A stretch of 64,000 bases of DNA, from NCBI GenBank assembly GCA_035640355.1, contig DASQWI010000017.1, forward strand, positions 1 through 64,000, written 5' to 3'. A model generated the notes under the pieces. The model did not search any database and was not told the DNA's origin. It was given only the letters and a program-made list of their open reading frames with translations. Made by a program: the position numbers and the translations under genes. Every line of letters begins with the position of its first letter. Positions within the stretch are counted from its first letter, which is position 1. Below, one piece after another: positions 8,934 to 54,605 of the stretch. The DNA is from Actinomycetota bacterium (GTDB lineage: Bacteria; Actinomycetota; UBA4738; HRBIN12).

Positions 8934-10351
8934 GCGACGTCAGGACTCGATTCGCTCCGGCGCCGTCGGGGTCGCTTCACGTGGGCAACGTGCGAACGGG
9001 ACTGTTCTCGTGGGCGTTCGCTCGGCACAACAAGGGCGCGTTCATCCTTCGCATCGAGGACACCGACGCCTCTCGAGTGACGGAGGAGGCGTTCCACGGC
9101 GTCATGGATTCGCTTCGATGGCTGGGGATCGACTGGGACGAGGGCCCCGACATCGGGGGTCCGTTCGAGCCATACCGTCAGTCGCAACGGATGGCCATCT
9201 ACCGTGAGACGGTCGACCGCCTTCTGTTGCAAGGCGACGCGTACCGCTGTTACTGCACGGACGAGGAGCTCGCCGGGCGCCGCGCGGCAGCGCGCGCCCG
9301 AGGCGAGCCCGAAGGCTACGACGGCCGCTGCCGGAACCTGTCGGACCAGGAGCGCGCGGCGTTCGAGGCCGAAGGGCGACCGTTCGCCGCCCGGTTCCAC
9401 ATGCCGGAGCGCGAATGGGTCATCTACGACCTCGTCAAAGGGGAGGTCCGGTGGGCGCCCGGTCACCTGAAGGACTTCGTCCTGATGCGGTCCGACGGCT
9501 CGCCGGTGTTCCTGCTCGCCGTCGCCGTCGACGACATGCTGATGGGAGTCACGCACGTCATCCGGGGCGATGACCTTCTCGACAGCGCGCCGCGCAACGC
9601 CGCGGTCATCGAGGCGCTCGGCGGCACGCCACCGAAGTACGCGCACGTCCCACAGGTGAACGGGCCCGACGGCAAGCCGCTGTCGAAGCGTCACGGCTCG
9701 ACCAGCGTCGAGGCGTTCCGCGAGAAGGGCGTCCTCCCGGAGGCGCTGATGAACTACCTCGCGCTGCTCGGATGGTCCAAGGACGCGGAGACCACGTTGA
9801 TCTCCAGGGATGAGCTGGTCGAGGCGTTCGATATCGAGCGCGTCTCGAAGAACCCCGCGCGCTTCGACGTCGACAAGCTCGAGTGGATGAACAATCACTA
9901 CATCCAGCAACTCGACGACGACGACCTCGCCGCGCGGTGCCTGCACTTCCTGTCCGTCGCCGGGTTGTCGCCGGATCCGGTGCTGCTCCGCCGCGCGATG
10001 CCGCTCGTCAAGACGCGCATGAAGTATCTGACGGAATGCGTCGCGCTCCTTCGGTCCTTGTTCTCCGACGACGTCACGCCCGACGACAGGGCCGCGGCGC
10101 TGATCGAGAGGGCGCCGGACGGGTACCTCGCCAGAATCGCGGACGAGCTCGAGGCGGTTCAGCCGTGGAGCTCCGAGGCGATCGAGAGCAAGCTCGACGA
10201 GGTCGTCGAGTCGTTCGGGCTGAACCGGACGAAGGGATTCCAGCCGGTCCGTGCCGCGGTGACCGGAACGACCGTGTCGCCGCCGCTTCCCGAATCGCTC
10301 GAGCTCCTCGGACGGCAGAGGACGGTCGAACGGGTCCGCACCGTCGCGTGA
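8930..10351 (+). CDS. gltX: Glutamyl-tRNA synthetase
   Basis: A 473-residue class I aminoacyl-tRNA synthetase that charges tRNA-Glu (and in most actinobacteria also tRNA-Gln before amidation). The ATP-binding HIGH motif appears as HVGN in [22 protein letters not shown], and KMSKS as PLSKRHG after [12 protein letters not shown]. The CYCTDEEL region and the helical anticodon-binding C-terminus ([21 protein letters not shown]) are complete. Start is GTG at 8930 overlapping the upstream stop. The cognate tRNA-Glu(CTC) is 44 kb away in this window. Confidence 0.96.
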
Positions 10352-21808: not shown

Positions 21809-21950
21809 GGCCCTTCTCCTTTCTCTCTCACGAGGCGGACTCTCCGCACCGCACGTGAGTAAGTGTCGGCGAGAAGAGGGGGTCCGCCCCGAGGCGTCCG
21901 GCCCTACCTGCGTGGGCCGAAGGTCCCGTCCGACTTGGACGAGATGCGCC

Positions 21951-26885: not shown

Positions 26886-26900
26886 AGGACGAAAGGCCCC
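26886..26900. promoter_or_regulatory. Candidate DosR-like half-palindrome, AGGAC-N4-GGCCC
   Basis: AGGACGAAAGGCCCC lies in the 180-bp space between divergent genes (starts at 26831 and 27012). It matches GGGAC-N4-GGCCC, a common form of mycobacterial DosR/DevR boxes, with one mismatch. A DosR-like regulator is encoded 3 kb away. Confidence 0.3.
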
Positions 26901-27399: not shown

Positions 27400-29010
27400 G
27401 TGGATCGACGCGATGAGCTGATCGAGGCCGGCCTCGTCCTCGCATCGGAGCTGTCGCTCTCGGCTGTGCTCCAGCGAATCATCGAGGTCGCGGCGGACAT
27501 CACGGGCGCTCGATACGGGGCTCTCGGCGTCGTCGAGGACGGCAGGCTCGTCGACTTCATCACTACGGGGATCACGACCGAACAGCGCCGCGCAATCGGC
27601 GACCTACCGGTAGGTCACGGAATCCTGGGACTGCTGATCCACCGCGGGACCGAACGAACCCCGATCAGGATCGCCGACATCTCGCAACATCAACACGCGT
27701 ACGGGTTTCCCCCTAACCACCCCGAGATGCATTCTTTCCTCGGGGCGCCGATCGTGGCACGAGGGGACGTCTTCGGCGATATCTATCTGACCGAGAAGCA
27801 AGGTGCTTCGGAGTTCACTGAAGAGGACGCTCAGACGGTCCTGGTGCTCGCGTCGCAGGCCGGCGTCGCGATCGAGAACGCGAGACTCTACGAGGAGACG
27901 GCCCGACGCGAACGATGGCTCGACGCCGTTCGCGAGATCACGAACGCGGTTCTGGCGGGAGCTGGATCCGACGAGGCGCTCTCGTTGGTCGCATCTCGTG
28001 CGCGAGAGCTCGTGGGCGCTGACCTGACGACGGTTGCGGTGCCCGACGGCGGCGGAGCGGAACTCGTGATCCGGGCCGCGGACGGCGCCCGGGCCGATGA
28101 GCTGACCGAACGCCGCTTCCCTGTGGACGGTTCGATTTCCGGAGCCGTGGCCCGCAGCGGTCGCCCCCAGATCAGCGAGGACGTATCGAACGACACTCGA
28201 GCTCAGCAACCGGTCGTCGCTCTTGGTGAGATGGGCCCTGCCGTGTTCGTCCCGCTTGCGCGTGATCGCGCCGCGTTCGGAACGCTTGCCGCCGTCAACC
28301 GTCGCGGCGGTCGATCCTTCACGCAGGACGACATTCGCGTCCTCGAGGCTTTTGGGGGACAAGCAGCGCTCGCGCTCGAATACGCGCGCGCCCAGGAGGG
28401 GATCCAGCGGCTCATGCTGCTCGAGGACCGCGAGCGAATCGCGAAAGAGCTTCACGACGGGGTGATCCAGGCGCTGTTCGCTGTAGGAATGGGCCTGCAG
28501 GGGACGGCCTTGATGAGCAGCGACGAGGACCTTGCCCGCCGCATCGAGGCGGCCGTCGGCGAGCTGGATCGCGTGATCCGGGACCTCCGCAACTACATCT
28601 TCGGCCTACGCCCCGGGATCCTCGCGGACCGCCAGCTCGGCCACGCGCTCCGCCACCTCGCCGAGGAGTTCGAAACGAAGAGCGGCGTCGTCACCGTCGT
28701 GGAGATCGACGACGAGGTCGCGTCTGTGGTCACATCACATGCCGCCGAGCTCGTCCAGCTCGCGCGCGAAACGCTCTCCAACGTCGGGCGCCATGCGAAC
28801 GCGGCAACGTGCAGGCTGTCGTTGCGGCAGGACGGCGGTGCTGCCGTGCTCGAGATCGACGATGATGGGAACGGCTTCGATCCGTCGACCACACGGCGCG
28901 GGGAGGGGCTGACCAACCTGGAGGGGCGCGCGGCGGCGCTGGGCGGCAAGGCGATCATCGCCAGCGTGCCCGCGCAGGGCACGACGATCCGGATCGAACT
29001 TCCGCTCTGA
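27400..29010 (+). CDS. GAF-GAF sensor histidine kinase, DosS/DosT-like
   Basis: A 536-residue soluble kinase: GAF-A ~20-165, GAF-B ~175-332, HisKA_3 dimerisation domain with His352 in RERIAKELHDGVIQALF, and HATPase_c to the end (ETLSNVGRHANAA N-box, DDDGNGFDP, GEGLTNLEGRA). The segment YGFPPNHPEMHSFLGAPI in GAF-A matches the region of mycobacterial DosS/DosT that carries the heme-ligating His; here it is His107. So an O2/NO/CO or redox-sensing heme is likely. The natural partner is the NarL-type regulator at 30061. GTG start with leaderless TACGCT -10. Confidence 0.92.
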   Translation: MDRRDELIEAGLVLASELSLSAVLQRIIEVAADITGARYGALGVVEDGRLVDFITTGITTEQRRAIGDLPVGHGILGLLIHRGTERTPIRIADISQHQHAYGFPPNHPEMHSFLGAPIVARGDVFGDIYLTEKQGASEFTEEDAQTVLVLASQAGVAIENARLYEETARRERWLDAVREITNAVLAGAGSDEALSLVASRARELVGADLTTVAVPDGGGAELVIRAADGARADELTERRFPVDGSISGAVARSGRPQISEDVSNDTRAQQPVVALGEMGPAVFVPLARDRAAFGTLAAVNRRGGRSFTQDDIRVLEAFGGQAALALEYARAQEGIQRLMLLEDRERIAKELHDGVIQALFAVGMGLQGTALMSSDEDLARRIEAAVGELDRVIRDLRNYIFGLRPGILADRQLGHALRHLAEEFETKSGVVTVVEIDDEVASVVTSHAAELVQLARETLSNVGRHANAATCRLSLRQDGGAAVLEIDDDGNGFDPSTTRRGEGLTNLEGRAAALGGKAIIASVPAQGTTIRIELPL

Positions 29011-30060: not shown

Positions 30061-30744
30061 GTGAGCACGGAGAAAGCCAAGACCAAACCGCCTCTCCGTG
30101 TCCTCCTGGTCGACGACCACGAGGTCGTGCGTGACGGCGTCCGTGCCCTTCTCCAGGCGACCGACGACATCATCGTTACGGCCGAAGCCGGGTCTGTTCG
30201 TGAGGCTGTCGACGAAGCGGACAGGGCACGTCCCGACGTGGTCGTCATGGATGTCCGGCTCGTCGACGGGAGCGGCATCGAGGCGACCCGTGAGATCAGG
30301 GCCAAGCACCCCAAGACTGCCGTCATCATGCTGACCTCGTTCGCGGACGACGAAGCCCTCTTCGCATCGATCATGGCGGGAGCGTCCGGATACGTGCTCA
30401 AGCAGGTAAAGGGCGGCGAGCTCGTGCGCGCGATCCGCACGGTCGGCAAGGGCGAGAGCCTCCTCGATCCGGCCGTGACGAACGCAGTGTTGGAGCGTTT
30501 GCGCAAGGGCAAACATCTGCTCCGCGACGAGAAGTTGGCCCGCTTGTCGCCGCAGGAGGAACGAATCCTCTCCGCAGTCGCCCATGGGAAGACGAACAAG
30601 GAGATCGGCGACGAGCTTCGCCTTGCCGAGAAGACCGTGAAGAACTACGTCTCCAGCATCCTGTCGAAGCTGGAGGTTGCGCGCCGTGCGGAGGCGGCGG
30701 CGTATCTCGCCCGGCACACCACCACACCGGGTACTCCTGCCTGA
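30061..30744 (+). CDS. NarL/LuxR-type response regulator, DosR/DevR-like
   Basis: A 227-residue regulator: receiver domain 12-130 with Asp64 (VVVMDVRLVDGSG) as phosphoacceptor, switch Thr in IMLTSF, Lys in GYVLKQVKGGEL, and a C-terminal GerE HTH (LSPQEERILSAVAHGKTNKEIGDELRLAEKTVKNYVSSILSKLEV). The RLAEKTVKNYVSSIL helix is very close to that of DosR/DevR, the hypoxia/dormancy regulator. Likely phosphorylated by the GAF-GAF kinase at 27400 and likely to control the flanking stress genes. GTG start with leaderless TAGGCT -10. Confidence 0.92.
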   Translation: MSTEKAKTKPPLRVLLVDDHEVVRDGVRALLQATDDIIVTAEAGSVREAVDEADRARPDVVVMDVRLVDGSGIEATREIRAKHPKTAVIMLTSFADDEALFASIMAGASGYVLKQVKGGELVRAIRTVGKGESLLDPAVTNAVLERLRKGKHLLRDEKLARLSPQEERILSAVAHGKTNKEIGDELRLAEKTVKNYVSSILSKLEVARRAEAAAYLARHTTTPGTPA

Positions 30745-30746
30745 CC

Positions 30747-30765
30747 CCGGACCAAAGGCCCCCGG
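30747..30765. promoter_or_regulatory. Candidate DosR-like site, CGGAC-N4-GGCCC
   Basis: CGGACCAAAGGCCCCCGG follows the response-regulator stop by a few nt and precedes the DoxX gene. It resembles GGGAC-N4-GGCCC with one mismatch and is close to the site at 26886 (both contain GGAC-x-AAAGGCCCC). Confidence 0.3.
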
Positions 30766-30860: not shown

Positions 30861-31464
30861 ATGGCAACGAGGGTGATCGACAACGGGGTCGTGACGGAGA
30901 TCACGGCCAACGGCGTCACGACGGTGTCGAAGCCACGGGAGGGAAGGACGGCCGGCGCCGTGTGGGGGGTTCTCCGCATCGCGATGGGCTGGACCTTCCT
31001 GTGGGCGTTCGTGGACAAGGCGTTCGCCCTGGGCTTCGCGACGGGGCGCAACCCGGAGACCGGCGCCATCGACTTCTTCGGCGACGCCGCGTGGGTCAAC
31101 GGCGGATCGCCGACGGACGGCGTGCTGATGTACGCGCTGAAGGGCCCCTTTCAAGGGTCTGTATGACGGTCTGACCGGGCAGACATGGGTCGAGTGGGTG
31201 TACATGCTCTCGATGCTACTGATCGGGCTCGGTCTGATCTTCGGGATCGGAACGCGGCTGGCGGCGCTCGGCGGGATCGTGTGGATGGCGATCTTCTACA
31301 CGGCCACGGCGATCTGGCCGGAGCACAACCCGTTCCTCGATGACCACGTCGTGTACGCGGTCGTGCTGGCCGGCATCACGTACGTCGGAGCCGGCAGGTA
31401 CATCGGGCTGGGTCGGTACTGGGAGCGGTTGTCGCTGGTGAAGCGGCTGCCGGTCCTCAAGTAG
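30861..31464 (+). pseudogene. DoxX-family membrane protein gene with a single-base frameshift
   Basis: The first part (30861-31166) reads into GRTAGAVWGVLRIAMGWTFLWAFVDKAF and stops after LKGPFQGSV. The continuation KGLYDGLTGQTWVEWVYMLSM through GLGRYWERLSLVKRLPVLK is in the next frame, up to 31464. Reading CCCTTTCAAG (about 31145-31155) with one T fewer restores a continuous GPFKGLYDGL, so one inserted base in a T run explains the break. The intact product would have four transmembrane helices and about 200 residues. DoxX/TQO-like proteins take part in thiosulfate-quinone or redox stress functions. A sequencing error is a real alternative. Good ribosome-binding site (AAAGGAGGGCGTC). Confidence 0.85.
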
Positions 31465-31476
31465 TACTTCGCCCGA

Positions 31477-31514
31477 ACCAGCGAGGCGGGGGTATGAACT
31501 CCCGCCTCGCTGGT
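31477..31514 (+). terminator. Terminator hairpin after the DoxX gene
   Basis: ACCAGCGAGGCGGG (31477-31490) pairs perfectly with CCCGCCTCGCTGGT (31501-31514); the stem can extend inward by three more pairs. It separates the DoxX gene from the CBS gene and has no T tract. Confidence 0.75.
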
Positions 31515-31534
31515 CGCAGCGGAAGGGAGTCGAC

Positions 31535-31930
31535 ATGGTCAAGGCGCCGGATTTCGTGCAGCAGATGATGAGCTCCCCGGTCGTTCACGTAGGACCGGAC
31601 GCCAGCGTCGCCGACGCTCTTCGGGCGATGATCGACCGCGACATCGGTGCTGTCGTCGTCGTCGAAGATGGACGCCCGGTCGGCGTGTTCACGGAGCGGG
31701 ACGTATCGCGAAGGATCCTCGACGATCCACAACTGTTGGTTCGTGGCGTGGGCGACGTGATGTCGGTGCCCGTCGTCTCCGTCGCGCTAACGGACGAGGT
31801 TGTCTTCATCTTCGGTCTGATGACGGGCAAGCGGATCCGTCGTCTGCCCGTTGTCGAAGGCGATCGATTGATCGGGATCATCACTGAGAGAGATCTGCTC
31901 CGTTGGGTCGATGCAGTCGCGTCCGAATGA
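31535..31930 (+). CDS. Tandem CBS-domain protein, Hrp1-like
   Basis: A 131-residue protein consisting of two CBS motifs (VQQMMSSPVVHVGPDASVADAL ... TERDVSRRIL and VGDVMSVPVVSVALTDEVVFIFGLM ... TERDLLRWV), the layout of the mycobacterial hypoxic response protein Hrp1. CBS pairs bind AMP/ATP or related ligands and act as energy sensors. ATG 31535 has GGAAGGGAG upstream. The next gene begins 20 bp before its stop, so the two are coupled. Confidence 0.9.
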   Translation: MVKAPDFVQQMMSSPVVHVGPDASVADALRAMIDRDIGAVVVVEDGRPVGVFTERDVSRRILDDPQLLVRGVGDVMSVPVVSVALTDEVVFIFGLMTGKRIRRLPVVEGDRLIGIITERDLLRWVDAVASE

Positions 31931-32525
31931 CGCGTCATCGGCCGCGGTCGATCTCTACTGGATTCCGCTTGGAGCCGGCGGACACGTCGTTCGGCTCAAC
32001 GGCAAGGTCTACGAAGCCATCAAGGCGCTCGTCGAGCGACGCCACCGAAACGACCTGTACCACACGGCTCTCGAGATCAGCGTTCCGGACGGCCGCTTCG
32101 TCATCGAATCCGCGCCGATCCGAGACGACACGGGTCCCGAGCGCGGCGTCGTTGGCGAGGGCCCGGTCGGGACGCGATGGGCGGGACGTTTCCGGCTGTT
32201 CCGCTACGAGATCCGCCGGTGGCGCGGAGGGTTGATCCCAGATGCGAGGGAGGCGGTGTCGAGCCCGGTCCGGGTTGCGAACGACGTCACGCGAGCGACA
32301 GGCATCCTCGAGCTGGTGCCGTCCGTCCCGATGCTGGTCTGGGGCCGAGACGAGCTGCGCACCGGCGACATGTGGAACTCCAACTCGCTGATCTCATGGT
32401 TGCTCGCTCGCGGAGGCGTGGAAACGTCGACGCTGCAACCGCCGGCGGGTGGGCGAGCTCCCGGTTGGCACGCGGGGCTGGAGCTCGCAGGCCGTCAGAT
32501 CGCGATGCTCACTCGCTCAGGCTGA
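31911..32525 (+). CDS. Conserved hypothetical soluble protein
   Basis: A 204-residue protein without signal or membrane segment. The start VDLYWIPLGAGGHVVRLNGKVYEAIKALVERR and later HTALEISVPDGRFVIESAPI, TRWAGRFRLFRYEIRRWRGG and DELRTGDMWNSNSLISWLLARGG suggest a defined alpha/beta enzyme-like fold, possibly a papain-like or lipid-modifying domain, but I do not recognise the family. It overlaps the CBS gene by 20 bp (ATG 31911), which points to co-expression. Proteins of this type recur next to CBS/USP genes in actinobacterial stress islands (inference). Confidence 0.7.
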   Translation: MQSRPNDASSAAVDLYWIPLGAGGHVVRLNGKVYEAIKALVERRHRNDLYHTALEISVPDGRFVIESAPIRDDTGPERGVVGEGPVGTRWAGRFRLFRYEIRRWRGGLIPDAREAVSSPVRVANDVTRATGILELVPSVPMLVWGRDELRTGDMWNSNSLISWLLARGGVETSTLQPPAGGRAPGWHAGLELAGRQIAMLTRSG

Positions 32526-32642
32526 ACGGCGGATAGCGATCCGTGACCAAGATGTACGCATCTACTTACTCGCCCTTGCGCTAGTGCGAAGCTCCGGACT
32601 TTCGGCTTCACACTGCTCGGCTTCGGTGCGGGAACGGGCTAC

Positions 32643-32735
32643 CTAGATCCTCTTCGCGATCCAGTCGTGCACGGGAGGCACGAGCGCGACGGCAAGCTCG
32701 GCCGCGATCCCGACGGCGTGGATCCCGATGTTCAT
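32643..32735 (-). CDS. Possible 30-residue small protein
   Basis: MNIGIHAVGIAAELAVALVP followed by PVHDWIAKRI is a compact, plausible amphipathic/hydrophobic peptide in an otherwise gene-free stretch. Its ribosome-binding site is weak (GGGAG 14 nt upstream), and its upstream region contains the GGGAC/GGTCCC motif cluster at 32759-32796. It could be a short membrane peptide or chance. Confidence 0.3.
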   Translation of the reverse strand: MNIGIHAVGIAAELAVALVPPVHDWIAKRI

Positions 32736-32758
32736 CTGCACGCCGGCATCTCCCGCGT

Positions 32759-32796
32759 GGGACCTCCGGTCCCTTCGGACCTGGGCCCAAAGCCCC
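32759..32796. promoter_or_regulatory. Palindromic GGGACC/GGTCCC cluster
   Basis: GGGACCTCCGGTCCC (32759-32773) is a 15-bp palindrome around a 3-nt centre, overlapped by GGTCCCTTCGGACC and followed by GGGCCCAAAGCCCC (32783-32796). The arms resemble DosR-type boxes. It lies between the possible minus-strand small ORF and the plus-strand genes from 32881. Confidence 0.35.
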
Positions 32797-32880
32797 TATG
32801 GCGTTCACGACGCGAGACGGAAGGTAGGAGGCCAGGCGGACCGGAGACGCCGGTCCGAGACGGCCGAGGGAGGTGTCGCC

Positions 32881-33000
32881 GTGGTCTTCTGGGTCGTCGT
32901 CGCGGCGGCGTGCTGCGGGCTCTGCATCTACGGCATCAGCAGGGCGATCCGCCGCTCGAAGGAGCGCCACACGGAGGAGCGGCGCGTCTCGACGTATTGA
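32881..33000 (+). CDS. Small single-pass membrane protein
   Basis: A 39-residue protein: one hydrophobic helix (VFWVVVAAACCGLCIYGISRAI) with three cysteines, then a charged tail (RRSKERHTEERRVSTY). A strong ribosome-binding site (GAGGGAGGTGTC) 3-10 nt before GTG 32881 supports translation. Size and shape resemble the small membrane proteins found elsewhere in this island (41 and 61 residues). Function unknown. Confidence 0.55.
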   Translation: MVFWVVVAAACCGLCIYGISRAIRRSKERHTEERRVSTY

Positions 33001-33071
33001 TGGAAGCGTGACCACCAGCCGCGGCCCGGGGACGCGGCCGGCGGTGCGCCAGAACGTGGACGGGTGAGGAC

Positions 33072-33566
33072 ATGAACATCGATATGGTCGAACTGCAGGC
33101 ATCGGTTCCGACACGGTCCAAGCGGCGGTTCTGGGGACACTTCGCCGAGATGGTCGTCGTGATGCTGCTGTCGATGGCCATCCTGGGAGCAGCAGTCTCG
33201 GGGCTCTTCGCGCTCGCGGGACACTCGAATCTGCTGCATTATGCGGCGCTCCGGGGCCTGCTGATGACCGGGTACATGGTCGCCGGCATGGCGCTGTGGA
33301 TGCGCCATCGGCGGCACGGCTGGGCCAGCGTCGGCGAGATGAGCGCGGCGATGACCGTTCCGTACATCGTCTTGCTCGGTCCGTTCCTCGCTGGGGCGAT
33401 TCCCGAAGGGTCGTTCCTCGCAGCCATGCACGTCCTGATGGTTCCGAGCATGTACGTGGCGATGGCGCGGCGTCGGGAGGAGTACGAACTCGACCACAAG
33501 GATCATCACCGGCGCGGCGGTCGCGAGCCGGTTCATCACCAGGGGGGATTCTCATGGCAACGATGA
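33072..33566 (+). CDS. Four-helix membrane protein, unknown function
   Basis: A 164-residue protein with helices at about 26-50 (MVVVMLLSMAILGAAVSGLFAL), 58-75, 88-112 and 118-132, and a His/Arg-rich cytoplasmic tail (DHKDHHRRGGREPVHHQGG). Similar small multi-pass proteins occur in actinobacterial genomes without known role. The His-rich tail might bind metal. ATG 33072 is preceded by GTGAGGAC. Its end overlaps the CoA-binding protein gene by 13 bp, so they are probably co-expressed. Confidence 0.7.
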   Translation: MNIDMVELQASVPTRSKRRFWGHFAEMVVVMLLSMAILGAAVSGLFALAGHSNLLHYAALRGLLMTGYMVAGMALWMRHRRHGWASVGEMSAAMTVPYIVLLGPFLAGAIPEGSFLAAMHVLMVPSMYVAMARRREEYELDHKDHHRRGGREPVHHQGGFSWQR

Positions 33567-34042
33567 GAGAAGCAGCGAAGGAGTTCCTGTCGAAGCAGAG
33601 GATCGCGGTGACGGGTGTCTCGAGGGACCCGAAGGGACACGGAGCCAACGTCGTGTATCAACGGCTCCGCGACCGCGGGTATCAGGTCTTTGCGGTGAAT
33701 CCGAACGCGGATGAGGTCGAGGGCGATCCTTGTTACCACGACCTGAAGACGATCGAGGGCGGCGTCGACGCAGTCGTGATCGGGACGCGGCCTGAGGTCG
33801 CCGTCGAGACCATGCGCGAGTGCACCGAGCTTGGGATCCGCCAGGTGTGGATGCATCGCTCGTTCGGACGGGGCAGCGTCTCGGACGAGGCCACGTCCTA
33901 CGGCCGTGAGCGAGGAGTCACCGTGATCGACGGAGGATGCCCTTTGATGTTCAACCCCTGCGCCGACTCTGGCCACAGGGCGATGCGCTTCATCTTCACG
34001 ATGACAGGGAAGGTACCTCGCACGGTTCCGGTCGACGCCTGA
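33554..34042 (+). CDS. CoA-binding domain protein (YccU-like)
   Basis: A 162-residue Rossmann-type CoA_binding protein: IAVTGVSRDPKGHGANVVYQRLRDRGYQVFAVNPNADEVEGDPCY, then VDAVVIGTRPEVAVETMRECTELGIRQVWMH and GVTVIDGGCPLMF. The family binds CoA or acyl-CoA and is often associated with acetylation or stress, but no enzymatic activity is established. ATG 33554 is preceded by CAGGGGGG. The upstream open frame is antisense or out of phase to the overlapping membrane gene. Part of the run of stress genes downstream of the DosR-like regulator. Confidence 0.88.
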   Translation: MATMREAAKEFLSKQRIAVTGVSRDPKGHGANVVYQRLRDRGYQVFAVNPNADEVEGDPCYHDLKTIEGGVDAVVIGTRPEVAVETMRECTELGIRQVWMHRSFGRGSVSDEATSYGRERGVTVIDGGCPLMFNPCADSGHRAMRFIFTMTGKVPRTVPVDA

Positions 34043-34067
34043 GTAGTCCCGGAGGAACGAGGGCGAT

Positions 34068-34379
34068 ATGCGGGTCGCGTACTTTTACTTGATGCAGCAC
34101 GATCCGGGCCGGGTTGGTTCAGTCGCACCGAATCACGCGGCGTACTGGCGTGAGCTCGACCTGCCTGACTACGTCGGCGGCCCGCTGGCTGACCGGTCGG
34201 GCGGACTCATCACGTTCTCGGCCGGATCGATCGAAGAAGCGGAGTTGCTCGTGGCGAGAGACCCGTTCGTATGAGCAGGAGTGATCGGTCGTGTCTGGCT
34301 GAAGGAGTGGGTTCCGAACGGTGGTGAGTCCAGCGGGCGGGACCAAGGGACCGCACGGTCCGGGTCGTCCGGCCGGTGA
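34068..34379 (+). pseudogene. YciI-family gene interrupted by an in-frame TGA
   Basis: The frame from ATG 34068 gives MRVAYFYLMQHDPGRVGSVA ... EEAELLVARDPFV and stops at TGA 34272-34274. The same frame continues with AGVIGRVWLKEWVPN and remains open to 34379. The YciI fold normally continues as DPFVRAG ... WLKEW, so a CGA (Arg) to TGA change truncated the last beta-strand and helix. The shortened 68-residue product probably does not fold fully. No sequence around it suggests selenocysteine insertion. YciI-like proteins are small dehydratase- or monooxygenase-like folds of uncertain function. Confidence 0.8.
34339..34352. promoter_or_regulatory. Candidate DosR-like site, GGGAC-N4-GGACC
   Basis: GGGACCAAGGGACC lies 80 nt upstream of the membrane protein start at 34433. 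It resembles GGGAC-N4-GGCCC with one mismatch. It is inside the decayed 3' part of the YciI gene. Confidence 0.25.
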
Positions 34380-34432
34380 TCTCGATCGGGCACGAGGGCA
34401 CGATGGCACCGACAAGATGGGAGGTGATTCAC

Positions 34433-34810
34433 ATGTGGCGGTTCATCTTCATCGGATTCCTCATCGCGCACGGGCTGATCCACGTCGCGATGTGGGTCCT
34501 CGTTCCGAATCCAGCTCCCGGGAAGGAAGCGCCCTTCGATGCTTCTTATTCGTGGCTGCTTGGCGACAGGAGGGCACTCGCCGCGACGGTCGCTACAGCG
34601 ACCGCGGTGGTGCTGGTGGCAGCCGGGATTGGACTGTGGGCGCATGCCGACTGGTGGCGCGCTGCGGCGATCACCGGCCTAGCTGCTTCGTTCCTGCTGA
34701 TGGTCGTGTATTTCACCCCCTGGTTCCTCTTCATCGAGGGGGTCAACGCGGCCCTGATCGGCTCGATCCTGTGGCTGAGCTGGCCGTCGAGGGCGATGGT
34801 CGGGGCGTGA
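34433..34810 (+). CDS. Four-helix membrane protein, unknown function
   Basis: A 125-residue protein with helices at about 3-23 (RFIFIGFLIAHGLIHVAMWVL), 48-68, 74-92 and 97-118, and the motif AHGLIHVAMW containing two intramembrane histidines that could bind heme or metal. No family assigned with certainty. ATG 34433 has an excellent ribosome-binding site (GGAGGTGATTCAC). It lies between the two decayed genes (YciI and alpha/beta hydrolase) and is itself intact. Confidence 0.7.
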   Translation: MWRFIFIGFLIAHGLIHVAMWVLVPNPAPGKEAPFDASYSWLLGDRRALAATVATATAVVLVAAGIGLWAHADWWRAAAITGLAASFLLMVVYFTPWFLFIEGVNAALIGSILWLSWPSRAMVGA

Positions 34811-34838
34811 TGGCAACGTAAGCAGAGGAGGCCCCGCG

Positions 34839-35772
34839 ATGAACGTGTTCCAGCGTTATCGGAACGACATCGACGCCGCGAAGCGAAGATCGGTGGGCTT
34901 GAATGGCGATCCGTGGACTCGTCGTTCGGCCGGATCGAGTACCTCGACCGTGGCGACGGTCCGGTCGTTCTCGTAGTCCACGGCATCACCGAGGCGGCGG
35001 ATGGCGGCCTTCGCGATCTCGCCGAGGGGCTCGTGCCGGATGGATACCGACTGCTCGTCCCGTCTCGGTTCGGCTACCTCGGCTCGGAGATGCCTGAGCA
35101 CGCGACCACTGAGATGCAGGCCGACGCCTTCGCAGAGCTCATGGATTCGCTGGGTATCAGCGACGCCGTGGTCCTGGCGGGGTCGGCCGGGAGCACGTCC
35201 GCGCTGCATCTCGGGGTCCGTCATCCCGAGCGGGTCCGTGCGCTTATCCTGGTCTCCGCCAACGTCCTGGGTGAGCACCTTTCGAAAGGGTTGCCGCCGA
35301 AGCCACTGTTCAAGGCGATCTTTGGCAACGACCCGATCCTCTAGACGATGATCACGTACCTGCGCGGCCTGATCGCGCGCTCAGCCAGGTGCTGCAAGTT
35401 CCTCACGGCGTGCAGCTGATCCCGGGCGATCAGGAGAAGCTCGCCCGCGCGATGCACAACGTCCTTCTGGGGAAACTCAGGGTCGTGGGCGAGTGCTTCG
35501 ATGCGTACGTGTCGAACCCGGACGTCAACCGAATCGATCTGTCACAGGTCCGCGTCCCGACGCTCGTGATGCACGCTCGCGACGATCCGGGTCCTCCCTA
35601 CGAGGGCGCCGTCGAGATGTTCCGCCGCATCCCCGACGCGCGCCTCGTGACGATCGGTAGCGGTGGTCACCTCATGCTGGGTGGCCACGCCGACGCGATC
35701 GGCGACGTCGCTCGCTTCATCGCAGAGCACGGCAGACATGCCCGCGAGCGGACCAAGATCCGCAGCTCCTAG
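34839..35772 (+). pseudogene. Alpha/beta hydrolase gene with two frameshifts and one nonsense codon
   Basis: Translation starts well (AGAGGAGG before ATG 34839: MNVFQRYRNDIDAAK), but the family sequence continues in another frame from about 34882 (KIGGLEWRSVDSSFGRIEYL), through the oxyanion region VVLVVHGITEAADGG and the nucleophile motif LAGSAGSTSALHLG. It hits TAG at 35342-35344, where TGG (Trp) would fit, and then shifts frame again near 35385 to resume VLQVPHGVQLIPGDQEK ... VRVPTLVMHARDD and the catalytic His region IGSGGHLMLGGH. So at least three lesions are present. The nucleophile position reads GSAGS, with Ser expected in G-x-S-x-G. Non-functional unless the sequence is wrong. Confidence 0.8.
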
Positions 35773-38318: not shown

Positions 38319-39581
38319 CTAGGGGGTCGCCTCGTCGGGCGCCGGACCAGCCTCGGGGGCTGGGTCAGCCTGTGGCGCCGGACCAGGCTCGGCGGCCGGA
38401 TCAGGTTCTGGAGCGGGATCAGCTTCTGGCGCGGGGTCAGCATCGGTGGCCGCGTCGGTCTCGGGCGCCGGGCTCTCCACGGGCGCCGGGGTTTCATTGT
38501 GCTTCGGGCCGGCGTGGGGCGGCGGCCCGTTCCCCGGCTTCTGGTCGTCACTCGGCTTGGGGCCGGCGTGGGGCGGCGGGCCGTTACCCGGCTCGTCGTC
38601 GTAGCCCGTAGAGTCTGCATCGGGCTTCGGGCCGGCGTGCGGCGGCGGGCCATTGCCAGGCTTCCCGTCGTAGCCATTCGGGCCTGCCTCGGGCTTCGGG
38701 CCGGCGTGCGGCGGCGGGCCGTTACCCGGCTTTGTGCCGTCGTGGGGCGGCGGGCCGTTACCAGGCTTCTCGTCGGACCCGGGCGTGCCGTAGTCGGGTA
38801 CATCACCGTAATCCGGCAGTGGGTCGACATCAGGCACCGGCTCACCGTCGGGAACTGGGTCGACAACGGGAATGGGATCGTCATCCGGCACTGGGTCGAC
38901 ATCCTGTACGGGGTCGACATCCTGTACGGGGTCGACATCCGGTACGGGGTCGGTGTGCGGCGATGGGTCGGCTTCAGGCACCGGGTCGGAATCCGGCACT
39001 GGCTCCGGATCCGGCAGGACGTCGACATCAGGGATCGGGTCGACATCAGGCAGCGGGTCGGAATCGGGGAGCGTACTCCCGTTATGGGCAGGCGCCTGTT
39101 GTGTCGGATAAATGGATCCGGCGATCCCGCCCAGCAACAACTGAGGTCTCCACACGGGCCCATCGTCATCCGCCGGCCCGAACGGCTCGGCTGTGGTATG
39201 CGGAGCCGTAGCCGGGTCCGCTCCGAACCTTGGCGCCGACGACGGTAGTCCGGCAAGCGCCAGTAGCCCGGCGGCGGCGTCCCGAGCTTCGTCCGGGAGC
39301 CCTCCACTGATCGCGAGGCTCGTACTTGCCGTGAGGACCGTGACGACGAGAGCGGCTCCGAGCCTCGTCCCTGCTCGCCGCCCCTTCGTCGCGACGTCTC
39401 GCACGACGGTTCGTTGTGCGGCGCGTCGGTTGGTACGCAGCGTCGAGGTGACTGCGGAGATGGCCTCGTTCGCGCTTGCCTGTTCTTCCGGTGTGGCCGC
39501 GGCTCGAACCGCTTCGAGGATCTCCGCGAAGTCGAACGCATCAGTGGTTTCTTCGATGAGCCCTCCGTCGATCTTCGTCAT
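38319..39581 (-). CDS. Membrane protein with long Pro/Asp-rich repeat tail, possible anti-sigma partner
   Basis: A 420-residue protein in three parts. Residues 1-75 are cytosolic-type (DAFDFAEILEAVRAAATPEEQASANEAISAVTSTLRTNRRAA). A single transmembrane helix follows at about 76-95 (LGAALVVTVLTASTSLAISGG). The rest is extracytoplasmic: a D-P-x-P-D-x-D repeat zone (~170-245), five copies of PGNGPPPHxG with GPKP spacers (~255-350) and a Pro/Ala/Glu tail. Its ATG overlaps the stop of the kinase-sigma fusion gene by 4 nt, the usual position and topology of a membrane anti-sigma factor, but no recognised anti-sigma motif is visible. It could also be a wall-spanning sensor or stalk. Confidence 0.75.
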   Translation of the reverse strand: MTKIDGGLIEETTDAFDFAEILEAVRAAATPEEQASANEAISAVTSTLRTNRRAAQRTVVRDVATKGRRAGTRLGAALVVTVLTASTSLAISGGLPDEARDAAAGLLALAGLPSSAPRFGADPATAPHTTAEPFGPADDDGPVWRPQLLLGGIAGSIYPTQQAPAHNGSTLPDSDPLPDVDPIPDVDVLPDPEPVPDSDPVPEADPSPHTDPVPDVDPVQDVDPVQDVDPVPDDDPIPVVDPVPDGEPVPDVDPLPDYGDVPDYGTPGSDEKPGNGPPPHDGTKPGNGPPPHAGPKPEAGPNGYDGKPGNGPPPHAGPKPDADSTGYDDEPGNGPPPHAGPKPSDDQKPGNGPPPHAGPKHNETPAPVESPAPETDAATDADPAPEADPAPEPDPAAEPGPAPQADPAPEAGPAPDEATP

Positions 39582-42052
39582 CGGCGCGTTCCCGATTCAG
39601 CCCGTTCGAGAGTCCAGACCGTCCGTAGGGCGGTGCGGTCCTTCAGAGTCCGAAGCCCCTCCATCTCTCGCACGCGCACTTGATCGGGTGAATCGCCGGT
39701 GATCTCCGCGACCTCCAGCGGGTCGAGATCTCCCAGGGCGCGCAGAAGGAGAACGTCGGCCTGCTCAGGGTCGAGCGCCCTGATCTGGGCGAGTGCGGCG
39801 TCAACTGCGCGTCGTTCGTCGGACACGTCTTCGGACCGCTCGATCCGCGCGCTCGGCTCAAAGCCTCGCTCCTCACGCGCTTCCTGCAAGCGCCGCCTCG
39901 CAGCGGCGAACACCCATCGCCGGAAGGAGGCCTCGTTCCCTTCGAACTCCGGGAGCCCCGCTGCGATCTCGCTCCACGTCTCGGACGCGAGCTCTTCCGC
40001 GCGCTCGGGTAGATGCGCTCGCAGGTAGCGGAGAACCCGCGGATGAAACTCGCGGAACAGGGCGGCGACGGGCAACTCCAAGCCCACTTGCGCGGCCGCA
40101 AGCACGGTCTCGAACCGGTCGGGGAGGGCGACATCGCTCAGGACGAGCCGTTGCCCTGACAGACCCAGTGCGGTGCGGGACATGACCGTGGTGCCTCCGA
40201 TCGACGAATCGTTTGCCGTCACGCGACCGCGTGGGAGTTGGAAGCTGAATCTCGACCCCGCCCCTGGCTTGCTCTCGACCTCCAGGTAGGTGCCGTGCAG
40301 GTCGAGGATCTCGGACACGAGTGCGAGGCCGAGGCCCGTCCCTCGCGTCGATCGGGTGTTCGGATCGCCTCCGCGGAAGAACCGTTCGCCGATGTGAGAC
40401 AGCTCATCGGGCGGTATCCCGGGTCCGTCGTCAAGGACGGCGACGACCGCGTCCCGGCCTTCGCCGATCGCGGACACACGGACGTTGCTCCCCGCCGGCG
40501 TGTATTTCGCTGCGTTCGTGAGCAGGTTTTCGACCACCCGCTCGAGGAGCAGGGGATCTGCCTGGGCCGTGAGTCCTTGTTCGACGTCGACGTGGACGAT
40601 GTGGTGACGGAAGAGACTGGCCAGGCGGTCGGTCACTCCGGTCAGCAGCTCTCGCAGATCGACGTCCGTCGGTTCGATGTCGAGCTGTCCCGCCTCCAAC
40701 CGTCCGAAGTCGAGGAGCTCGGCAACCATGCTGTCCAGCGTTGCGGCGTTCGCATTCAGTCGGGCCAGCAGATCGCGATGGTCTTCTTCCGAAAGGATGT
40801 CCGCGCTCTCCTCGAGTGTCCGACCCACGCCCGTGATCACGGTCAGCGGTGTACGCAGCTCGTGCGAGATGTTGGAGAGGAAGTCGTTCTTCATCCGGTC
40901 GAGCTCTGCGATCCGGTCCATCGAGCGGCGTTGACGTTCGAAACGGCGAGCGTTCTCGAGTGCGACAGCCGCCTGCGTCGCGAGCATCTGAAAGACCTCG
41001 ACGTCCTGAGCCGAAGCACCGTCGGATCCCTCAACGCCGACGACCAGGATCGCCTCGACGTGCTCGCCTTCGGGGATGGGGATGACCACCACTGACGAAA
41101 GGCCAAGCCGGCGAATCGGCTCCCGAAGCGCGTCACCGACCTCGCCCATGACCACGGGCTTTCCTCCGTCCAGCACCCGCCTGATGGCCTCCAAGCGAAG
41201 CGAGTCGATCGCGTGCGAGGAGTTCTCGGGGGCATCCGGAGGAAGGACGGCTCGATAGTCACCATCGTCTTGCACGTAGATCCGGGTAGTCGGAAAGCCC
41301 AGCGCGACGACCGAGTCCACGACCGCTCGGAGGACGATTGTCGGTTCGACCGCGCTCATCTGTCTTGCCGCCGCCGACACCACCGCGAGAAGCGCCCACC
41401 GACGCTCGGACTCCAGATGTGCCTCCCTGTGCGCGGCGGTCTGACGTTTCAGCTGACCGACCAGCAGGTTCGCCAGGAAGGCGAGAACCCCGAGGATGAC
41501 CACGTTCATCGTGTTCCACCCCGAGGCGCCGAGGGCAACGGAGTAGCTGGCGACGGTAAGCGCCAAGAAGACGGCTTGGACGCGAGGGGTGAATGCAACA
41601 ACAGAGAAGAGTGTCGTGAGCAGGTACAAGAACATGAGCGGCGAGCTCGAGCCACCAGTGGCCCAGATACCGATGGCGATCAGGACGAGGTTCACGATCG
41701 ACCAGGCGAAGACGACCGGGATCCCCCAACCGACTCGGAACAGGCGTTCGTAGGGCAGCAGCGTGGCGAGTCCGGCGGCGATTGCGACGACGACGAACAC
41801 CACGCCAAACGGGCCCATGTCCACGTCGGTACCTCGAGCCAACACCAGCGCAGAGGCCGAGAACAGGGGAACGAGCAGGATCGTCCTCATCCCCATGTTG
41901 AGCGTGCGCAGCTGCAGGGGGACGGGAACGTCGTTCGATGCCCGAGCTTCGGCGTCTCGGGCTTCCTCAACTTGCTCGGCAACCGGCGTCGTCTCGCTGA
42001 CCCGGTGCCACCTTCGACCTCGCCAGCGAGCGCGCGGTATCGATACTTCCAT
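39578..42052 (-). CDS. Membrane histidine kinase fused to an ECF sigma factor
   Basis: One uninterrupted 824-codon frame. Residues 55-200: about six transmembrane helices. 225-370: GAF-like domain. 375-455: HisKA with H-box NISHELRTPL (His397). 495-608: HATPase_c with LLTNAAKYTP (Asn513), DDGPGIPPDE and GTGLGLAL. After a ~50-residue linker comes a complete ECF sigma: region 2 at ~663-725 (FREFHPRVLRYLRAHLPERA, ASETWSEIAAGL, FRRWVFAAARRRL) and region 4 at ~755-805 (LDPEQADVLLLRALGDLDPLEVAEITG, QVRVREMEGLRTL). No receiver domain. An internal ATG at 40183 (residue 624) with GGAGG 10 nt upstream could yield the sigma part alone. Start ATG 42052 follows a leaderless TACCCT. Confidence 0.88.
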   Translation of the reverse strand: MEVSIPRARWRGRRWHRVSETTPVAEQVEEARDAEARASNDVPVPLQLRTLNMGMRTILLVPLFSASALVLARGTDVDMGPFGVVFVVVAIAAGLATLLPYERLFRVGWGIPVVFAWSIVNLVLIAIGIWATGGSSSPLMFLYLLTTLFSVVAFTPRVQAVFLALTVASYSVALGASGWNTMNVVILGVLAFLANLLVGQLKRQTAAHREAHLESERRWALLAVVSAAARQMSAVEPTIVLRAVVDSVVALGFPTTRIYVQDDGDYRAVLPPDAPENSSHAIDSLRLEAIRRVLDGGKPVVMGEVGDALREPIRRLGLSSVVVIPIPEGEHVEAILVVGVEGSDGASAQDVEVFQMLATQAAVALENARRFERQRRSMDRIAELDRMKNDFLSNISHELRTPLTVITGVGRTLEESADILSEEDHRDLLARLNANAATLDSMVAELLDFGRLEAGQLDIEPTDVDLRELLTGVTDRLASLFRHHIVHVDVEQGLTAQADPLLLERVVENLLTNAAKYTPAGSNVRVSAIGEGRDAVVAVLDDGPGIPPDELSHIGERFFRGGDPNTRSTRGTGLGLALVSEILDLHGTYLEVESKPGAGSRFSFQLPRGRVTANDSSIGGTTVMSRTALGLSGQRLVLSDVALPDRFETVLAAAQVGLELPVAALFREFHPRVLRYLRAHLPERAEELASETWSEIAAGLPEFEGNEASFRRWVFAAARRRLQEAREERGFEPSARIERSEDVSDERRAVDAALAQIRALDPEQADVLLLRALGDLDPLEVAEITGDSPDQVRVREMEGLRTLKDRTALRTVWTLERAESGTRR

Positions 42053-45931: not shown

Positions 45932-47330
45932 TCAACCCGCGACCAGGTGCGCCAACTCGATCCGGTTTCGTCCCTTCCGTTTCGCGACGTACATCGCCCC
46001 GTCGGCCTCGCGGATCAAGAGCTCGGGGCGGACGTGTGAGTCGGTTCCCAACGATATGCCGGCGCTTGCCGTCACTCGCACTTCTCGGTTGTCCAGGAGA
46101 AACGGTTCGGAGAGGGGTCCGATCAGTCGTTTGGCGATGCGTCGCGCAGCCGCACGCGACGACACGTCCTCGAACATCGCGACGAACTCGTCCCCGCCGA
46201 TCCGAGCAAGCGTGTCGGACGGTCTCATCGAGGCGAGCAACCGCTGCGCAACCGCGACGAGGAGCTCGTCGCCGCTCTGATGCCCGAACGTGTCGTTCAC
46301 CTCTTTGAATCCGTCGAGGTCGAGGAAGATCACGGCCACTCCGCCGTCCGGCCTCCGCGCCAGACGGGCGAGCGCGCTCACGAGCCGATCCTCCAGCAGA
46401 CGGCGGTTGGGCAGACCGGTGAGCGGATCGTGGACGGCACGCCGCATCAGCTCCTCTTCCGCGTCCTTGCGGTCGGAGATGTCCTCGAGCATGCCGATCC
46501 CATACGATGGGCCGCATTGTGCGTCGCGCACGATCGCCATCACCGTGCGGCACCAAAGCTGCGAGTCATCCTTGCGCCTCAATCGGTGCTCCACCTCGCA
46601 CCGATCAACCACGCCGGTGATCACGTCGCCGATCGGATTCAGGCCGTCCCGTTCGTCGTTGTGAACGAGCGCACCCAGTGAGACCCCAGCTAGTTCGCCG
46701 TGCTCGTAGCCGGCCATGAGCTCGAGCGTCGGGTTCGCCTCGATGATCTTGCCGTGGACGTTCACGGTGGCCACACCGAAAGCGGCCGCGTCGAAGATCG
46801 TCCGGAACCGCATCTCGCTCGCCCGGAGCGCCTCTTCTGACCGCTTGCGTTCGGTGATATCCACCATCACGCCTTGCCAGTACAGCTCTCCGGTAGCGAC
46901 GTCTCGCACGACCGCGGCCTTCTCGCTCACCCATGCGACGCGCCCTTCTCGGGTCATCAGCCGGTACTCGGCGCTCATCGGTGAGAGCGTCCGGCGCGCC
47001 TCGGCGTCGGCAACGATCATTCGGTCGCGGTCTTCGGGGTGGCAGGATCTGCAACCACAGCTCGCCTTCGCCGAGCCACTCGGTGGCCGGGTACCCGAAC
47101 ATGTCCTCGACCTGCGGGCTGATGTAGATCGGCTCGGAATGCTCAGGGTCGTCCAAGACGCGGTCGAGATAGGTCGCGACTCCGGGGATGTGTTCGACCA
47201 GGGTCCGGAAACGCTCGTCGGGTGCCGGGTCGACTCGACGCTCGGTGTGTCCTGGCCCGATCTCGGGGTCTTGTTCTTCGTCCACGCCACCTGATCCTGT
47301 CTTCGGAACGCCAAATCCACGATGTTCCAT
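45932..47330 (-). pseudogene. PAS-PAS-GGDEF diguanylate cyclase gene with a single-base frameshift
   Basis: The 5' part (47330 to about 47050) encodes DERFRTLVEHIPGVATYLDRVLDDP ... VEDMFGYPATEWLGEGELWLQIL of a PAS domain. The continuation HPEDRDRMIVADAEARR ... is one base out of phase. Removing one C in CTGCCACCCC (about 47045) restores QILHPEDRDR. Downstream are the rest of PAS1, PAS2 (FRTIFDAAAFGVATVNV) and a GGDEF domain with intact RIGGDEFVAMF, so the product would be a c-di-GMP synthase. With the shift, only a GGDEF part could be made from an internal start. A sequencing error is possible. Confidence 0.82.
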
Positions 47331-54125: not shown

Positions 54126-54532
54126 ACGGACCGCCACCTGTGACAGCCTTCAAGACGTCGATGGGCATGGAGGGCCTGGAAGGCAACCGCGTCGAGGTCT
54201 ACGACCGGGTCGAACGTCGGGTCATACATGCGTGGACGAAAGAGCCCTAGCTTCACGAGTCCTAGAAGGAGAAAACGTGGCTGAGGGAGCGGTCGAACGG
54301 GCCGTAATTGTGACGAACCCATGGTGCATATGACGCTATCCACACGCGACCGTCCTAGTTGGGACCCCAACTCGTGGCCTCGCAGCCCCTAAGCAAAAGC
54401 CTCAACCTGTTCCCTCCCGTCGGCAGTTCGATCGCTACGTGTAACGGTCGTCCACGGGACGAATGCGGGACGAACGACCGAGTTGAGTGGCGGTTCAGAT
54501 GCGACACCGTTTCTGACCTGGGCCTTTGCTTG
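54126..54532. other. 407-bp stretch without a convincing gene
   Basis: Between the transporter stop and the tRNA. A frame of 90 codons (54043-54333) is antisense-like composition only. It carries the right copy of the 80-bp repeat, which ends inside the tRNA 3' end. Confidence 0.5.
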
Positions 54533-54535
54533 TAG
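54455..54535 (+). repeat. Right copy of the imperfect ~80-bp direct repeat
   Basis: Partner of 51321-51400 in direct orientation, 3.1 kb away. Its last three bases (TAG, 54533-54535) are the 3' end of tRNA-Glu (minus strand), the usual target region for site-specific integrases. Confidence 0.6.
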
Positions 54536-54605
54536 TCCCAACGGGATTTGAACCCGTGTCTCCACCTTGAGAGGGTGGTGTCCTAGGCCACTAGACGATG
54601 GGACC
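54533..54605 (-). tRNA. tRNA-Glu (anticodon CTC)
   Basis: The 73-nt minus-strand sequence folds as a tRNA: acceptor GGTCCCA paired with TGGGACT plus discriminator A, D arm CGTCTAGTGGCCTAGGACAC (typical of tRNA-Glu), anticodon stem CCACC/GGTGG with loop CTCTCAA giving anticodon CTC, and T arm ACGGGTTCAAATCCCGT. No encoded CCA. It reads glutamate GAG codons. Confidence 0.95.

Follow-up and report, generated by a model that had tools for sequence, protein, structure and literature searches.

Does a cluster of disrupted reading frames in a draft genome record genes that are being lost, or places where sequencing and assembly have failed? The question is raised by a 5-kb segment (positions 30,861 to 35,772) in DNA from an uncultured Actinomycetota bacterium. 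The window, meaning the whole stretch that was analyzed, is the first 64 kb of the 231-kb contig DASQWI010000017.1 (C17) of assembly GCA_035640355.1, which comprises 2.79 Mb in 29 contigs and has an estimated completeness of 97%. A first-pass annotation had described three genes of the segment, encoding a DoxX protein, a YciI-like protein and an alpha/beta hydrolase, as broken and the genes between them as intact, had listed a frameshifted PAS-GGDEF gene elsewhere in the window, and had taken the pattern for selective erosion that reflects a relaxed need for part of a hypoxia response. All four genes are indeed disrupted. The explanation that we hold with moderate confidence is an ordinary one: the three segment genes would be accessory members that recently became pseudogenes under a retained regulon of the OsdR/DevR type.

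Each gene was checked against homologues, as open frames alone are misleading at 66% G+C. The homologues come from relatives, some in the same family and others in the same order (G codes denote genomes, L codes loci), and each broken gene (Table 1) has a homologue among them that is open in one frame. The two halves of the DoxX gene match one protein in frames 3 and 1 and overlap at the site of the frame change. DoxX orthologues are found in a single frame in seven genomes of the family (G002, G005, G006, G008, G009, G014 and G015) and in the named locus L055, and in six of these seven genomes, G008 being the exception, the gene lies directly behind the same type of regulator; the only Pfam match to DoxX is on the C-terminal half, with a score under the curated cut-off. 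In the YciI-like gene a frameshift was considered and rejected, the lesion being a nonsense codon with no insertion or deletion: the 57% match to an open 84-residue gene of G006 continues across the TGA (the YCII model of Pfam matches with E = 0.0032, below the cut-off). Read against its open 311-residue orthologue in G007, the hydrolase gene changes frame at about 34880-34900, meets a TAG at 35342-35344 and changes frame again at about 35375-35398, and the Abhydrolase domain is found on both halves. Across its three broken genes the segment thus has five separate lesions, of which three change the frame and two are in-frame stops. The PAS-GGDEF counterparts are open in G003 and G013 (L157 and L158). 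The genes between the broken ones are all open, as the first-pass annotation had it, with the open reading frame (ORF) at 33072 judged by its open frame alone.

Table 1. Positions in the window of the broken genes, their neighbors, the regulators and the box-like palindromes.
Feature	Position	Strand	Lesion or basis
DoxX gene, broken	30861..31464	+	one frame change between 31141 and 31157
YciI-like gene, broken	34068 to about 34330	+	in-frame TGA at 34272-34274
Alpha/beta hydrolase gene, broken	34839..35772	+	three lesions: two frame changes, one TAG
PAS-PAS-GGDEF gene, broken	45932..47330	-	one frame change at 47043-47053
Sensor kinase, GAF-GAF-HisKA_3-HATPase_c, intact	27400..29010	+	Pfam; one open frame
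Response regulator, receiver and LuxR-type (GerE) domain, intact	30061..30744	+	Pfam
Two-CBS-domain protein, intact	31535..31930	+	Pfam domains; open frame
Protein of unknown family, intact	31911..32525	+	one-frame homologue
ORF, membrane-like by eye, open	33072..33566	+	open frame
CoA_binding_2 protein, intact	33554..34042	+	Pfam domain
Small protein, membrane-like by eye, intact	34424..34810	+	alternative start possible at 34376
Box-like palindrome	30748..30761	+	1 mismatch to GGGMCSAARGKCCC; 113 nt upstream of DoxX
Box-like palindrome	32783..32796	+	1 mismatch; 289 nt upstream of 33072 ORF / CoA-binding / YciI unit
Box-like palindrome	34339..34352	+	1 mismatch; 85 nt upstream of 34424 ORF / hydrolase unit (from 34424 start)

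None of the 62 loci that served as controls is broken, after five flags raised by the script were rejected by hand. These loci (55.7 kb) come from 13 other 20-kb stretches of the assembly and were given the same test as those of the window, with 1,981 genes of relatives as probes; the stretches were hand-picked, the choice of six being guided by a TetR match in them, L104 and L105 held no testable gene, and comparators were fetched specifically for L096, L103 and L106 only. Outside the segment the window has 24 testable loci, of which six were flagged and one, PAS-GGDEF, is real, and in the segment itself (30.8-35.8 kb) three of the five testable genes are broken. The ten other flags were put down, on inspection by hand, to antisense ORFs, ORFs in an alternative frame, extensions at the upstream end, or the fusion of an ORF with a tRNA gene; wrong-frame and antisense ORFs of relatives are the source of many false calls of this kind. 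Two of the flagged ORFs in L106 run together with a tRNA gene, and these tRNAs were confirmed (the one tRNA of the window lies at 54532-54605). A Fisher test gives p = 2.1e-4 for 3/5 against 0/62 and p = 3.2e-4 for 3/5 against 1/86, values that are post hoc and descriptive, as the segment was chosen for its lesions. Taking the control rate at its 95% upper bound, again post hoc, one would expect 0.14 lesions in the 2.5 kb tested, against the five recognized by eye, three of which were also caught by the script. With none of the 62 controls broken, the assembly does not have a high uniform error rate, and the lesion cluster is not the product of one.

Beyond the tested loci the control stretches contain 67 short ORFs, of which 60 were scanned with Pfam, the other seven being edge pieces or very short. 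A match was obtained for 37 of the 60, and none of these is broken inside; the remaining 23 are uninformative. Two of the matched ORFs are cut by the edge of a stretch and one has a wrong start. A seemingly truncated guanylate kinase among the controls was rejected as an artefact of start calling. A scan for frame changes with a codon model left at most one event per stretch unexplained (the six such control events were viewed as ORF lists, one of them also as a translation); it was not used for the verdict, because its filter passed the DoxX junction as a gene overlap.

Judged by sequence matches, the broken genes are patchy among the relatives. Among the 26 other genomes of the order a single one has a close orthologue of the hydrolase; some match is present in 25 of them, and apart from the orthologue these reach at most 57 bits. 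DoxX is found in eight of the 26, once as a fragment at a contig edge, and full-length YciI in one of the 16 other genomes of the family. No second match to DoxX or YciI was found in this assembly, where the hydrolase has only relatives of 29-33% identity. Pseudogenes of accessory, often horizontally acquired prokaryotic genes, as treated by Liu et al. (2004; PMC522871), share with the present case the stops and frame changes, the patchiness and the open versions in relatives, whereas here the affected genes are clustered in one island. DoxX, the YciI-like gene and the hydrolase gene would thus be accessory members that turned into recent pseudogenes through separate small lesions, and their loss would be tolerated because they are dispensable effectors.

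We infer that the lesions are real rather than errors of reads or assembly. Real local erosion is the better supported explanation because the background is low, a single gene has three lesions, and the segment lies 31-36 kb into a 231-kb contig, far from the contig ends; to this extent the selective erosion proposed by the first-pass annotation gains support from the clean controls and the three hydrolase lesions, although it is not proven. The G+C content of the segment (0.65-0.66) is inside the window's own range, and a repeat search found no long repeat pair flanking it. Several observations nevertheless weigh against pseudogenization. The control genes are biased toward conserved ones, and the broken genes are accessory. 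A comparison of the ratio of nonsynonymous to synonymous substitution rates (dN/dS) with relatives, the check that the first-pass annotation had suggested, revealed no rise after loss in the two genes tested: the value for the hydrolase is 0.22, against 0.15-0.23 in three intact neighbors, and that for DoxX is 0.33-0.47, against 0.27-0.66 among relatives. A run CCCC falls inside the DoxX frame change and a run GGGG stands 4 nt away from that of PAS-GGDEF (runs of four or more occur in 17% of 30-nt pieces taken at random from the window), and DoxX, YciI and PAS-GGDEF have a single lesion each. Moreover, according to Cooley and Wright (2024; PMC11017572), low coverage yields internal stops and frameshifts and low-quality reads yield mainly internal stops, so that the two stop codons of the segment are no safe sign of decay.

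The constraint still visible in DoxX and the hydrolase implies that the lesions are recent, or else that they are errors. The dN/dS values do not decide between the two, because young pseudogenes would look constrained too. In the hydrolase, changes at second and first codon positions stand at 61:53, compared to 79:145 in four intact genes (p = 0.0016, from one gene pair), and this excess at second positions may be a weak hint of relaxed constraint.

A mixed origin, in which the hydrolase is a true pseudogene and at least one of the lesions in DoxX, YciI and PAS-GGDEF is a sequencing error, is a doubtful but serious possibility, and it overlaps with the explanations that take the lesions as real or as errors. 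It would account for the numbers of lesions per gene and for the run context at the DoxX and PAS-GGDEF sites, and among the relatives DoxX is found more widely than either the YciI-like gene or the hydrolase. However, the YciI lesion lies outside any run, and with a background near zero two or three single errors in such a small stretch are unlikely.

That all of these genes are intact in the cell, and that low coverage or mixed strains produced false lesions through local sequencing or assembly errors, seems to us unlikely, without being far-fetched. Such errors would agree with the remaining constraint in the hydrolase and DoxX and with the runs of four in or beside two of the frame changes. 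The false pseudogenes of draft assemblies described by Cooley and Wright (PMC11017572) are likewise conserved genes that stops and frame changes interrupt, and low coverage, poor reads and the choice of assembler are named there as creating both kinds. However, a poor assembly should presumably show lesions elsewhere too, and the 62 control loci have none. Errors of this sort would also have to spare the open genes of 0.4-0.6 kb between the broken ones, to strike the 0.9-kb hydrolase gene three times, with no run of four or more within 10 nt of either frame change, and to do so well inside the contig.

The surroundings of the broken genes plausibly resemble a hypoxia island of the OsdR/DevR type. 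The sensor kinase is followed by a 339-residue ORF without a Pfam match, by the receiver-GerE regulator and then directly by DoxX, and phosphoketolase and acetate kinase genes lie upstream. The GAF-GAF-HisKA_3 kinase therefore stands close to a regulator of the receiver-GerE type, as would be expected of such a regulon. It is matched over 97% of a relative's gene, and its layout is similar to that of DevS, DosT and OsdK, two GAF domains being present in DevS and DosT as well. The regulator has 77-94% identity in the best 13 stretches (among the best 14 of 22 matches) and a dN/dS of 0.10 against G007. No universal stress protein was found among the 40 pieces of the window that were scanned, which cover part of its ORFs, and a literature search found no paper combining at least four of DosR, Actinobacteria, DoxX, universal stress and CBS domain.

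The pattern GGGMCSAARGKCCC was derived partly from the sites at 30748, 32783 and 34339, together with the DoxX upstream regions of relatives, and its counts are therefore partly circular: with at most one mismatch it occurs five times in the window (21914, 26886, 30748, 32783 and 34339) and twice in 260 kb of controls. The site at 32783 falls inside a small ORF without homologues. Such a site is present within 220 nt upstream of DoxX in five of seven relatives, G002 and G008 being those without. A pattern made from the relatives only has its one perfect match in the window at 21914; with at most two mismatches it occurs five times in 17-45 kb, against 1.08 expected, and only 21914 and 32783 are shared with the five sites of GGGMCSAARGKCCC, and with at most three it occurs 13 times in the window, against 8.8 expected, which is not significant (p = 0.11). 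In the G007 island, which was not used in the derivation, the relatives-only pattern gives 8 sites against 0.74 with at most two mismatches and 21 against 6.1 with at most three, and none at one mismatch. Matches to the DevR box of Mycobacterium tuberculosis (GGGACYNNRGTCCC) stand at chance level, with 16 in the window against 18.8 expected. The box-like palindromes at 21914-21927 and 26886-26899 lie near the acetate kinase and phosphoketolase genes and before a YtfJ-like gene.

OsdK-OsdR of Streptomyces and DevS-DosT-DevR of Mycobacterium (PMC5069765) share with this island a kinase beside a LuxR-type regulator with other genes clustered around them. Several units there are preceded by a 14-bp core box resembling GGGCC-4-GGCCC, as several are here by putative boxes. 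The Streptomyces OsdR consensus given in the same paper, AGGGCCGATCGGCCCT, has half-sites similar to those of the window palindrome and equal spacing, whereas the putative box here is a variant with AA in its center. From their spacing, DoxX, the 33072 ORF with the CoA-binding and YciI genes, and the 34424 ORF with the hydrolase gene would be transcription units, and the regulator at 30061-30744 probably controls these genes.

The type of kinase and regulator, together with the OsdR-like boxes, makes the link to hypoxia plausible. A relaxed need for part of that response is not demonstrated: kinase and regulator are open, the regulator's dN/dS is low, and the ratios of the hydrolase and DoxX stay within those of neighbors or relatives. 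The best reading is a narrower loss that concerns patchy accessory genes only. The segment would belong to a hypoxia- or dormancy-type island run by a two-component system similar to OsdK-OsdR or DevS-DevR, in which kinase, regulator, boxes and neighboring genes would be retained. One could also assume that the regulon is being trimmed from its tip, the effectors in several units having been lost nearly simultaneously while sensor, regulator and boxes are kept, so that the oxygen signal would persist and its use would have changed; we regard this as rather unlikely. Programmed recoding, with full proteins obtained by frameshifting or stop read-through, is highly improbable, although no search for slippery sites or RNA structure was made: nothing but the kept constraint would suit it, each of these genes is a single open frame in the relatives compared, and the hydrolase would require three separate events.

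The open neighbors of the broken genes vary in how closely they are related to known sequences. The CBS protein has distant homologues only (25-43% identity in the best 14 of 18 matches). The ORF at 31911-32525 has no Pfam match and is 61% identical to a G007 sequence over residues 9-196 in a single frame; in L151 (G009), positions 9909-10211 match it at 44% with two stops inside, a hint of decay. No remnant gene was recognized in 32526-33071 by comparison with relatives, and the 33072 ORF has neither a Pfam match nor a match in the relatives compared. The CoA-binding protein has 59-77% identity across the best 80 named loci, which are mostly actinobacterial with a few from other phyla, and a dN/dS of 0.15 against G007. 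The 34424 ORF has single-frame homologues, is 70% identical to L089:9494-9880 (dN/dS 0.17) and lies directly upstream of the hydrolase in G007 as well. In L089, which belongs to G007, the same island is rearranged; the 34424-type protein is encoded twice there, and CoA-binding, 34424-type and hydrolase genes form an open run without YciI between them. A partial YciI match of 40 residues with a TGA inside, at G007:C6:4746-4865, hints at decay in this relative.

Elsewhere in the window, the minus strand has an open frame of 824 residues (39578-42052) with a region resembling a membrane span, GAF, HisKA and HATPase_c domains, and sigma-70 regions 2 and 4. The better sigma matches of relatives are in frames of mostly about 190-250 residues, a few being longer (444-604), and no kinase match was found beside the sigma match in the 14 relatives' loci compared (L303-L316). 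The kinase-sigma fusion may be real, or else the frame consists of two genes joined after the loss of a stop. Directly downstream, a gene of 420 residues on the same strand (38319-39581) encodes a short N-terminal part, a hydrophobic stretch recognized by eye, and long six-residue Asp/Pro-rich (DPVPDV-like) and KPGNGPPPH-type repeats that are visible as 18-nt repeats in the DNA; its product may act in the membrane as a partner to the sigma domain.

Real or erroneous, the case is ordinary in kind. Should the lesions be errors, they would warn that a draft genome with an estimated completeness of 97% can still contain accessory islands that appear decayed. Should they be real, the segment would be a small and clear example of an uncultured lineage losing effectors while keeping the stress regulator above them, and the presence of hypoxia regulators should then not be taken lightly as a sign of the full response.

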